64,000 bases of DNA from Amycolatopsis bartoniae. GTDB lineage: Bacteria > Actinomycetota > Actinomycetes > Mycobacteriales > Pseudonocardiaceae. Shown here in pieces: positions 57,809-61,784 of this stretch. The notes under the pieces are model-generated. The model was not told where the DNA came from and made no database searches. It was given only the letters and a program-made list of their open reading frames with translations. The stretch is taken from contig NZ_JACHWH010000001.1 of NCBI RefSeq assembly GCF_014191255.1, forward strand, positions 1,612,001 to 1,676,000, written 5' to 3'. The translations under genes were made by a program, and so were the position numbers. Position 1 is the stretch's first letter, and each line of letters starts with the position of its first letter.

Positions 57809-59707
<1,899 letters not shown>

Positions 59708-59831
59708 GCGAAGGCTCCTGAGGTGCTCAGAGTTTCGGAAGGGAGGGCCACCCGGCCGGCTTTGGCCTTCGGGCAGTCCCTCTCAGGATACCCTCTACCC
59801 CTTTGTGACCTCCGACACGCTGCACCGGCAG

Positions 59832-59850
59832 TTAGCTTCGCCTAACCTAA
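59832..59850. promoter_or_regulatory. Iron-box-like site (IdeR/DmdR type)
   Basis: TTAGCTTCGCCTAACCTAA matches the 19-bp actinobacterial iron box (TTAGGTTAGGCTAACCTAA) at 16 positions and contains the full right half site CTAACCTAA. It ends four bases before the ATG of the Cys-rich gene. Confidence 0.6.
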
Positions 59851-59854
59851 TCCA

Positions 59855-59998
59855 ATGGGCAAGGACAGCGCGGAACCCCAGGCGGTGGTGCGCAAGCTCA
59901 TCAAGGCCGGCAAGGTGAAGAAGAAGTGCTGCCGGTCGAAGAGCCGCTGCAAGAAGTGCCCGGTGCTCGCGCTCAAGAAGGCGAAGGCCGCCGCCTAG
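59855..59998 (+). CDS. Small Lys/Cys-rich protein (47 residues)
   Basis: A 47-residue basic protein starting [20 protein letters not shown] and carrying [20 protein letters not shown] near residues 25-44. The cysteines (CC-X5-C-X2-C) could bind zinc or iron. I do not recognise a named family. The ATG directly follows the iron-box-like site with no ribosome binding site, which suggests a leaderless transcript with its -10 region inside the box. Its stop codon overlaps the convergent YciI gene by four bases (CTAG). It is too short for routine gene finding. Confidence 0.7.
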
Positions 59999-60300
59999 GC
60001 GAGCTGGGCCATCGCCTCGTTCAGGCGGTGCAGCTCCGGCGCGGTGCGCGTCGCCGCGAACTCGATGATCTCGAACGTCGCCAGGTGCCCGAGCACGAAG
60101 GGGTTCACGCAGAGGATCGCTTCGAGCTTCGCGCGTGACATCGACCGCGTGAGGATCACGCAGCCTTCGCGCGAGTCCCGGCGGCCCGCCGCGAGGAACT
60201 CCCCCGCCGCGAAGTGCTTTTCCAGCCACTTCGCGTAATCGGGTAATGCGTAGTCGACTTCTTCCAACGGGGCTGTGTAAGTCAGCAGAACCACGAACAT
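59995..60300 (-). CDS. YciI family protein
   Basis: A 101-residue YciI-like protein with the ferredoxin-like fold (MFVVLLTYTAPLEEVDYALP, GEFLAAGRRDSREGCVILT). The conserved catalytic-site His near the start of the family motif (usually RxxHLxW) is not obvious; the equivalent segment reads YAKWLEKHFAAGEF, with a His at residue 29. Function of YciI proteins is generally unknown. The stop overlaps the Cys-rich gene. Confidence 0.85.
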   Translation of the reverse strand: MFVVLLTYTAPLEEVDYALPDYAKWLEKHFAAGEFLAAGRRDSREGCVILTRSMSRAKLEAILCVNPFVLGHLATFEIIEFAATRTAPELHRLNEAMAQLA

Positions 60301-60407
60301 GAATCGACGGTAGCCCCGTCACGGCGTACCGGCGGTCGAGATTTGGACTCGTCGATCACATCGGTCATGCGGTGGTAAAGAATTGCCGCGGGAGTTAAAG
60401 TGACCGC

Positions 60408-60452
60408 ATGCGCAGCTTCACGGGTCTGTGGTGGCCGCCCTCGGGCGGCTGA
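60408..60452 (+). CDS. trpL: trpS leader peptide
   Basis: The 14-residue frame MRSFTGLWWPPSGG has tandem Trp codons (TGG TGG at 60429-60434) just before the first stem of the attenuator, and ends in TGA at 60450-60452. Ribosome stalling here when charged tRNA-Trp is scarce would set the fold of the downstream RNA. The start ATG follows AAAG/GGGAG sequences at loose spacing, so translation strength is uncertain. Confidence 0.9.
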   Translation: MRSFTGLWWPPSGG

Positions 60453-60500
60453 CCTCGCTGTGCGCTGACACATCCAGGCCGCCCGCACGGGCGGCCTTTT
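60434..60500 (+). promoter_or_regulatory. Ribosome-mediated transcription attenuator of trpS
   Basis: Four segments: 1 GCCGCCC (60434-60440), 2 GGGCGGC (60443-60449), 3 GCCGCCC (60478-60484), 4 GGGCGGC (60489-60495). 1:2, 2:3 and 3:4 can all pair. 3:4 is a terminator (8-bp stem including flanks, 4-base loop, TTTT at 60497-60500). Segment 1 starts right after the Trp codons, so a stalled ribosome frees segment 2 to pair with 3 and prevents termination. This is a full trp-type attenuator in front of an aminoacyl-tRNA synthetase gene. Confidence 0.92.
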
Positions 60501-60554
60501 CCGTGTCCGGGAGGCGGTCCGCGCGGGCGGCACCGAACCTCCGAGGAGGACACG

Positions 60555-61517
60555 ATGAGGATCTCCGGCATCACGCCGTCCGGTCACCCGCAGCTCGGCA
60601 ACTACCTGGGCGCGATCTCGCGCTGGGCCGCCGAGGGCGGGCCGTCGGACCTGTACTTCGTCTCCGACCTGCACGGCATGACCACGACACACAACCCGGC
60701 CGGGCTGCGCTCGCGCACGAGCGAAATGCTCGCCGTGCTGATCGCGTCCGGAATAGCCCCGGAACGCGTTTTCGTCCAGTCCGATCTGGCGCGGGAACTC
60801 GGCGCGCTGACGTGGATCCTGGAATGCACCTGCAGCTACGGCGAGGCCGCGCGAATGATCCAGTTCAAGGAAAAGGCGGGCGGGCGGAGCGGGGTGCGGT
60901 TGAGCCTGCTGACGTACCCGGTGCTGATGGCCGCGGACATCCTGCTGCAGGGCGCGGACGAGGTGCCCGTCGGCGAGGACCAGCAGCAGCACGTGGAGCT
61001 GACCCGTGCGCTGGCGCGGCGGTTCAACTCCACCTACGGCGAGGTGTTCGCGGTGCCGGAGGCGGTGCTGCCGCTCACCGGCGCGCGCGTGCGGGACCTG
61101 GCGGACCCTACGCGGAAGATGTCGAAGTCGGCGCGGGACGCGGCAGGCGTGGTGTTCGTGCTCGACGAGCCGGACCTGGTCCGCCGCAAGATCCGCCGGG
61201 CGGTGACGGACGCGGAGACGGTGCCCGCGTACGACCCGGAGCGGCGGCCGGGGGTGTCGAACCTGCTGGAGATCCTCGCCGCGTGTTCGGGCACGACGCC
61301 GCGGGAGGAGGCCGAGCGGCACGGTTCGTACGGGGCGCTCAAGGCGGCCGTGGCGGAGGCGGTGGTCGAGACGCTGCGCCCGATCCGCGAGCGGACACTG
61401 GAGCTGCTGGCGGACCCGGCGGAGCTGGAGCAGGTCCGCAAGGCGGGTGCGGCGCGTGCCGCGGACCGCGGCGAGCACCGGCTCAGCTCGGCGCTGCGCC
61501 TGATCGGGGCGGGTTGA
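60555..61517 (+). CDS. trpS: Tryptophanyl-tRNA synthetase (auxiliary, inducible type)
   Basis: A 320-residue class I synthetase charging tRNA-Trp. The HIGH-type motif is in SGHPQLGNYLGA (residues 9-20) and KMSKS is at residues 188-192 (RKMSKSARD). The dimer/tRNA helices and C-terminus are of normal length. GGAGGA lies nine bases before ATG. In Streptomyces coelicolor an auxiliary TrpRS is known to confer indolmycin resistance and to be controlled by ribosome-mediated attenuation; the leader here is of that type. A housekeeping trpS would then be elsewhere in the genome. No sequence trait here alone proves drug resistance. Confidence 0.93.
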   Translation: MRISGITPSGHPQLGNYLGAISRWAAEGGPSDLYFVSDLHGMTTTHNPAGLRSRTSEMLAVLIASGIAPERVFVQSDLARELGALTWILECTCSYGEAARMIQFKEKAGGRSGVRLSLLTYPVLMAADILLQGADEVPVGEDQQQHVELTRALARRFNSTYGEVFAVPEAVLPLTGARVRDLADPTRKMSKSARDAAGVVFVLDEPDLVRRKIRRAVTDAETVPAYDPERRPGVSNLLEILAACSGTTPREEAERHGSYGALKAAVAEAVVETLRPIRERTLELLADPAELEQVRKAGAARAADRGEHRLSSALRLIGAG

Positions 61518-61726
61518 GGGACGTCAGCGGGATGCCCGCGGCGGAGGCCGCTCGCCGCTGCTGCCGGTCGAACGACCCCAGCACGACCTCCGCCCCGGGC
61601 TCCCCGGCCAGCTGCACGGCCACGGCGAGGTAGCACGCGTCGGCGCCGGGTCGAGGGGAGGACGACCCGGCCTTCGTCGGCCAGGCGCCGGAGGATCGCC
61701 TCGTCCGCCACGGGTACCACCTTCAC
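61493..61726 (-). pseudogene. Broken PIN-domain toxin gene
   Basis: Two frames on the minus strand together read like the end of a PIN toxin. One frame gives MKVVPVADEAILRRLADEGR and VVLP; after a shift near 61645-61660 the other gives ADACYLAVAVQLAGEPGAEV and FDRQQRRAASAAGIPLTSLN, with stop at 61493-61495. The D-A-C-Y-L-A segment is typical of VapC-like proteins. The 5' part is missing or scrambled and no antitoxin remains. Its end overlaps trpS by 25 bp. Confidence 0.65.
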
Positions 61727-61784
61727 GTAGGGCTGCCGTCCTTGATGATGACGCCAGGTCGCCGGGGTGAACGACCTCAGGCCC

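Follow-up and report, generated by a model that had tools for sequence, protein, structure and literature searches.

A probable leaderless Trp-codon attenuator before an auxiliary tryptophanyl-tRNA synthetase gene in Amycolatopsis bartoniae and its family

The second, auxiliary tryptophanyl-tRNA synthetase (TrpRS) of Amycolatopsis bartoniae is very probably controlled by a classical ribosome-mediated transcription attenuator that is carried on an apparently leaderless mRNA. The element occupies 60408-60500 of the window, which is the whole stretch of 64,000 nucleotides that was analysed. Ribosome-mediated attenuation of an auxiliary TrpRS is already known from Streptomyces; new here are the spread of the element through the family, its likely leaderless start, a further stem at the 5' end, called P0, and the presence of similar leaders before other TrpRS lineages. 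A sequence-only reading of this DNA was correct on what the element is and very probably on what it does. The features are listed below.

60396..60401, + strand: -10 box TAAAGT, ending 6 nt upstream of the leader ATG
60408..60452, + strand: leader ORF, MRSFTGLWWPPSGG and stop, 14 codons, with tandem Trp codons 8-9 at 60429-60434 and TGA at 60450-60452
60409..60416, + strand: putative P0 stem, 5' arm TGCGCAGC, at the 5' end of the presumed mRNA
60434..60440, + strand: segment A (1), GCCGCCC, pairing with B in a protector hairpin within the leader ORF
60443..60449, + strand: segment B (2), GGGCGGC, with A or C as partner
60457..60464, + strand: putative P0 stem, 3' arm GCTGTGCG, between segments B and C
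60476..60484, + strand: terminator 5' arm AGGCCGCCC, including segment C (3), GCCGCCC, at 60478-60484
60489..60497, + strand: terminator 3' arm GGGCGGCCT, including segment D (4), GGGCGGC, at 60489-60495
60497..60500, + strand: short U-tract TTTT, under the cut-off of the strict terminator scan
60543..60550, + strand: Shine-Dalgarno-like site GAGGAGGA of trpS, recognised from the sequence
60555..61517, + strand: trpS, auxiliary tryptophanyl-tRNA synthetase, 320 aa, assigned by TIGR00233 (252 bits against a cut-off of 176.75), PF00579 and the tree

The codons of the leader ORF are ATG CGC AGC TTC ACG GGT CTG TGG TGG CCG CCC TCG GGC GGC TGA, and both the 14-codon leader with tandem Trp codons and the identical GCCGCCC/GGGCGGC segments are present as the sequence-only reading had described them. 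The attenuator also stands in front of a TrpRS gene, as had been proposed, with the trpS start 54 nt past position 60500. The three stems had been called mutually exclusive, which holds for B:C, as this pairing would displace both A:B and C:D, but does not hold between A:B and C:D, which are compatible with each other and are present together in the predicted fold of 60400-60510 (z-score -2.6, with 3 of 200 shuffles equally stable). C:D is the core of a 9-bp, GC-rich terminator stem (60476-60484 / 60489-60497) followed by TTTT from 60497. The proposed terminator with TTTT is thus found as stem and tract, but it fails a strict scan of 60300-60600 that requires at least five T in eight and reports no terminator there, given that the U-tract has only four T. 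A strict sigma-70 scan (9 of 12) of the same interval reports no promoter, and the -35 region is weak. Judged by these scans, the U-tract and the -35 region are weak signals in textbook terms.

The exact A-B-C-D pattern occurs once in the 64-kb window, compared to no occurrence in 100 shuffles, and once in the whole 7.76-Mb genome, in which a reversed control pattern has no match. An Rfam search of 59500-61000 returned no T-box and no family above its gathering score among four matches up to E 1, the best of which scored 24.7 bits versus a gathering score of 50.

In the mechanism proposed, the leader would be transcribed from its own ATG. When Trp-tRNA is plentiful, the ribosome would reach the UGA at 60450 and cover B, such that C pairs with D and transcription stops at about 60500. 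When charged Trp-tRNA is short, the ribosome would stall at codons 8-9 and cover A, leaving B free to pair with C; with B:C formed, the terminator could not form in time and trpS would be made. If no ribosome loads, P0 and A:B would hold B, and the default state would be off.

The switching was followed in a model of the nascent RNA, in which 61 leaders were folded, each beginning at its start codon and ending in the loop ahead of D, and a 30-nt ribosome mask was moved codon by codon. The mean modelled probability of the antiterminator is 0.11 without a ribosome (above 0.5 in 4 of 61 leaders), 0.996 with the first Trp codon in the A site and 0.982 at the codon after it (above 0.5 in 61/61 at both), 0.36 two codons past the first Trp codon and 0.07 with the ribosome at the stop codon (above 0.5 in 3/61). 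For the window's own leader the series, starting with no ribosome, is 0.01, 1.00, 0.91 and 0.00. The modelled outcomes are therefore opposite, in that the antiterminator is exposed by a stall at the Trp codon but stays hidden with a ribosome at the stop codon. The model does not resolve single codons: the two codons that precede the first Trp codon also open the antiterminator, with means of 0.98 and 0.996, and the codons three to six before it give partial opening of 0.28-0.57. Two other mask sizes shift this plateau, and with a larger mask the codon after the first Trp codon drops to 0.75. The plateau would place the Trp codons at the downstream end of the range of stalls that opens the switch.

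The nascent RNA before D was adopted after equilibrium folding of the full transcript under ribosome masks had lost the terminator at a Trp codon in just 2 of the 61 leaders. At equilibrium, the terminator of the window leader gives way when the ribosome stands on the second or third codon ahead of the first Trp codon, and not at the Trp codon itself. Since the terminator fold has the greater stability, the decision would have to be kinetic, taken during RNA synthesis. A kinetic choice during transcription is usual for attenuators.

The trpS gene lies beside a divergent YciI-like gene, typA/bipA and a NUDIX gene. The stretch between trpS and the NUDIX gene (window 61518-61760) holds no clear intact gene, and minus-strand fragments within it look coding by eye. 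The closest named relatives of the window TrpRS include those of Amycolatopsis, at 83-85% identity. The genome has one further trpS match, 48% identical, at G000:C4:232253-233179, and no tandem-Trp leader was found in the 320 nt searched for it. The suggestion that the window gene encodes a second TrpRS therefore stands, given that it is not the only trpS of the genome and that the other copy is without such a leader. In the tree, the window TrpRS falls in a 50-row clade (support 98/97) of leader-bearing TrpRS from Pseudonocardiaceae, Streptomycetaceae, Nocardioidaceae and others, and five housekeeping TrpRS rows of its own family fall outside this clade. For the tree, the 184 distinct proteins were reduced to 66 by thinning inside groups at 78% identity, and the Streptomyces housekeeping enzymes were not included.

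The element is common in the family. In a sample of 120 genomes of the Pseudonocardiaceae, all 63 window-type trpS genes fetched (51-100% identity) have a leader ORF that contains a Trp codon; a further window-type trpS, truncated by the end of its contig (G081:C83), is outside the 63. The attenuator-fronted auxiliary TrpRS is thus not confined to Streptomyces, but is found in at least 63/120 family genomes, each with another TrpRS match, for a minimum of two per genome. Adding named genomes brought the set to 135 window-type loci, partly from the same organisms. A leader ORF with a Trp codon is present in 135/135, as WW in 121, WR in 10 and WQ in 4. The second Trp codon is therefore Arg or Gln, with one Trp codon left, in L012, L060, L086, L087, L089, L092, L093, L122, L129, L131, L132, L136, L138 and L139. 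These single-Trp-codon leaders come, where named, from Lentzea, Umezawaea and Kutzneria, and match S. lividans trpL2 in this respect. The C-terminal part of the leader peptide varies, with the stop 4 to 13 codons downstream of the first Trp codon. A tandem-Trp leader was found before 0/8 housekeeping trpS genes, in three of which the single-Trp form was searched for as well, and a leader before 0/8 distant TrpRS of other groups (L102-L107, L109, L111). One of the latter, L103, is on a contig labelled as a Bifidobacterium breve MAG and groups with an unclassified Actinomycetota MAG; the contig is perhaps mis-binned.

The leader table took in 130 of the 135 loci, leaving out L131, the leader of which equals that of L092, and L097, L110, L127 and L130. 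The 66 distinct leaders were reduced to 61 by removal of L034, L058 and L113, for which a simple detector gave no terminator, and of L038 and L096, for which it gave the wrong hairpin. Alignment A1 and covariance model R1 were made from 56 of the 61, with L013, L014, L021, L026 and L030 left out, all of which score low for P0. Across these 56 leaders, B:C has 88.9% of its cells paired and the terminator stem 97.2%. The antiterminator pairs are nearly invariant in the main alignment, with no covariation there.

The leader mRNA looks leaderless, as the position of the -10 box suggests. A box that ends 6 nt before the ATG implies a transcription start at or next to the ATG. A script found a TANNNT box 6-8 nt (9 in one case) upstream of the leader start in 130 of the 135 window-type loci; L131, its leader being identical to that of L092, brings the count to 131/135. 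The four other loci (L097, L110, L127, L130) have a WW leader and no -10 box at the position searched. Because the leader start codons had been chosen partly by the -10 box, other ATG and GTG codons in the same upstream regions of the 66 distinct leaders served as a control, and 1 of 566 has a box at 6-8 nt. A GGAG-like site precedes 3/66 leader starts, compared to 54/66 trpS genes, for which the test was more permissive in that several start positions were allowed. By analogy, a leaderless start here is backed by trpL2 before trpS of S. lividans, which is described as leaderless from RNA-seq in the accessible part of PMC8079986.

At the 5' end of this presumed mRNA, the P0 stem is likely, not proven. 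The best P0 stem within each of the 61 distinct leaders has a mean score of 17.2, versus 14.25 (sd 0.33) with partners swapped and 11.7 in shuffled regions, and 17.2 was reached in 0/5000 partner permutations. Single leaders are uneven, some scoring no higher than the swapped pairings. Pairing reaches 88.3% for the six outer pairs in the 56-leader alignment, with three pairs changed on both sides, and 85.6% in all 61 leaders; the two inner pairs are less than 50% paired. Over eight pairs in the 61 leaders, the covariation score is 0.276 versus 0.202 in shuffles, and double-changed cells number 41 versus 23.3 (0/500 shuffles in either case). Versions of P0 that are slid along the alignment score lower on covariation, the nearest at 0.191. 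Less striking are the counts of double-changed pairs and of pair types, which were matched by 31/500 and 76/500 shuffles, respectively. The grade given to P0 reflects that kinship inflates covariation counts and that RNAalifold alone does not predict the stem on the leader alignment. Together with A:B, P0 would sequester B when no ribosome is loaded.

Related leaders stand before other genes as well. Model R1 has matches in 129/394 genomes of the class at E 0.01. From these, 70 matches were classified, including that of the window, picked partly by score and partly for family spread out of a larger number found: 34 adjoin trpS, 33 a trpE-like gene and 3 a trpD-like gene. Five of the 34 trpS are slightly closer to the housekeeping query than to the auxiliary query, and for 10 of the 33 trpE-like genes the match is weak, at 110-133 bits. 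In the subset checked against Pfam, a chorismate-binding domain was seen in one TrpE-like gene and both glycosyltransferase-3 domains in two of the three TrpD-like genes. In the window's own genome, R1 gives five weaker matches (E 0.11 to 4) and no trpE attenuator. One of these overlaps the same hairpins on the opposite strand, and three of the other four, with L186 left out, show no tandem-Trp leader by eye.

Two further TrpRS lineages of the family also carry Trp leaders. A leader precedes type III trpS in 6/8 family loci (G033, G044, G067, G077, G095, G116) and was not found for those of G019 and G087 (L193, L194), though the enzyme there is 66% identical to a leader-bearing one. For type IV the count is 6/6 (L195-L200, in G030, G109, G057, G068, G096 and G034, respectively), with a leader like MLRTACLGWWRST and different hairpin letters. 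One genome may hold two leader-fronted trpS genes, as G030, G068 and G096 also have a window-type trpS with a leader. For both types, the best PDB matches include the Deinococcus TrpRS II group, and the tree places both types, with full support, outside the clade of the window TrpRS, in a region where the tree tool warns that long branches meet. All 12 type III and IV leaders switch as the window's does in the nascent-RNA model, six of them with different A-D letters. That type IV switches despite these different letters is independent backing for the pairing scheme. The spread through the family, and the leaders before distantly related TrpRS, suggest that a Trp leader before trpS may mark spare TrpRS copies in genomes.

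Some observations on single loci accompany these counts. Replacement of a window-type trpS in situ by a type III gene behind the same leader was considered for G033 and found no support, given that the flanking ORFs differ (metallo-hydrolase-like and ArsR-like by eye, versus the YciI and TypA neighbours of the window). The type IV trpS of L196 (G109:C1:2018467-2019456) has one in-frame TGA in its open frame. The type IV locus L195 (G030) has P450-like and ketopantoate-reductase-like ORFs alongside, by eye, and is possibly part of a biosynthetic cluster.

A tentative proposal, for which the odds seem rather against than in favour, is that P0 may act as a gate on translation that is peculiar to leaderless attenuators. 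The leader would be read only if a ribosome engages the 5' AUG as it emerges, while the transcript is still shorter than about 57 nt; later the start codon would be buried and the switch locked off. This gated module would have been acquired in separate events by two or more unrelated TrpRS lineages, namely the window type and the TrpRS II-like types III and IV, as one of them turned into the auxiliary copy. P0 offers a testable idea on how leaderless attenuators avoid late loading of ribosomes. A literature search, which covered few subscription papers, found none on such a leader in Amycolatopsis nor, by title, on a 5' stem; this is weak evidence of novelty.

Residue 9 (B. stearothermophilus numbering, from the alignment), which we take to contact the inhibitor, is Gln in 8/8 housekeeping TrpRS examined. 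It is Thr in the window TrpRS, in 105/114 Pseudonocardiaceae auxiliary enzymes and in 6/8 divergent enzymes, Lys in 24/31 class-scan TrpRS, and Arg in 8/8 type III (two without a leader) and 7/7 type IV; Gln occurs in 6/114 and 3/31 of the leader-bearing enzymes. In these alignments residue 9 tracks lineage more than leader. Its use as a marker of leader-controlled TrpRS was dropped, given that Lys or Arg is also found in enzymes without a leader. His43 is kept in window-type TrpRS and H43N is absent; in B. stearothermophilus TrpRS, the change of H43 to Asn is given as a resistance change in the accessible part of PMC4899734. The auxiliary TrpRS of Streptomyces is described as indolmycin-resistant in the portions of PMC6804068 and PMC9437257 that were available, and we infer that it is the leader-bearing Streptomyces enzyme of the tree. 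Resistance of the window TrpRS to the inhibitor is plausible from these relatives, and the gene would presumably be induced under a TrpRS inhibitor.

The strongest alternative accepts the attenuator and changes its purpose: it would serve tryptophan starvation, not drug defence, and the second TrpRS would simply have higher affinity or output at low Trp. Whatever causes a shortage of charged tRNA, the leader would respond to it; similar leaders front trpE-like and trpD-like genes, and H43 is kept in the window type. Residue 9 is also no clean sign of a leader, with Lys in 5/8 distant TrpRS without one and Arg in both leader-less type III enzymes. The predominance of Thr or Lys at this residue in auxiliary enzymes, versus Gln in the housekeeping ones, speaks for drug defence, as does the resistance described for Streptomyces. 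As resistance of the window TrpRS is plausible only from relatives, a role in starvation is given a substantial chance, somewhat short of even.

The remaining alternatives concern the leader itself. The terminated leader RNA or its peptide might also act in trans, in the manner of rnTrpL/peTrpL of Sinorhizobium, a role for a trp leader peptide that is reported in the accessible part of PMC7298713. The terminated leader would make a separate RNA of about 93 nt, and its weak Rfam alignment is to RcsR1, but this match is at chance level (18.7 bits versus a gathering score of 60, E 0.71), the peptide varies in length in its C-terminal part and the cis switch already explains the conserved letters, such that an added role in trans is improbable. 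An unregulated hairpin or terminator, accompanied by a small ORF that arose by chance, is the least credible reading by far, because, easily as GC-rich DNA forms hairpins and unremarkable as a z-score of just -2.6 with 3/200 shuffles as stable may be, the comparison speaks strongly against it through conservation over 66 distinct leaders, P0 covariation, an array unique in the genome and opposite modelled outcomes at the Trp and stop codons.

The attenuator that is preferred here resembles the E. coli trp leader in its 1:2, 2:3 and 3:4 segments and its stall-dependent choice. Unlike the window leader, that of E. coli has a Shine-Dalgarno site and no stem that holds the first codons of the mRNA. 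Among the Streptomyces systems, regulation of S. coelicolor trpS (TrpRS1) by an attenuator was reportedly described by Vecchione and Sello in 2010, and the resistance of the Streptomyces auxiliary TrpRS is said to have been treated by the same authors in 2009. An attenuator before trpS2 of S. avermitilis was predicted in 2005, according to the accessible part of PMC1262725. The leader of S. lividans trpS is given as MMTRTCTQLWRAA in PMC8079986, again as far as its accessible part goes. The window element shares with these trpS attenuators (S. coelicolor, S. lividans trpL2-trpS, S. avermitilis trpS2) a leader peptide with Trp codon, the hairpins and the TrpRS gene behind them; its TrpRS is in the same tree clade as the leader-bearing Streptomyces TrpRS. 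It would also resemble trpL2-trpS in a leaderless start, which is seen by RNA-seq there, in the part of the source available, and is probable here. It differs from trpL2 in having two tandem Trp codons in place of the one given in that source, from the Streptomyces trpS attenuators in that its stop codon is the seventh codon after the first Trp codon, and from many class-scan enzymes in the Thr at position 9 of its TrpRS, where Lys is common.

The four-segment logic is shared with the trp operon and trpE attenuators of Streptomyces and Corynebacterium, and R1 matches are found before both trpS and trpE-like genes, but the target of those attenuators is biosynthesis. Three Trp codons are found in S. 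lividans trpL1, as far as its source was accessible, and in several class-scan leaders, unlike the two of the window. A known parallel to a leaderless leader ORF that acts as an attenuator is found in the mycobacterial poly-Cys short ORFs (Canestrari 2020, as cited in the accessible part of PMC13236596), which rely on Cys codons and for which the citing paper uses the term translation attenuation, in contrast to the transcription attenuation proposed for the window leader.
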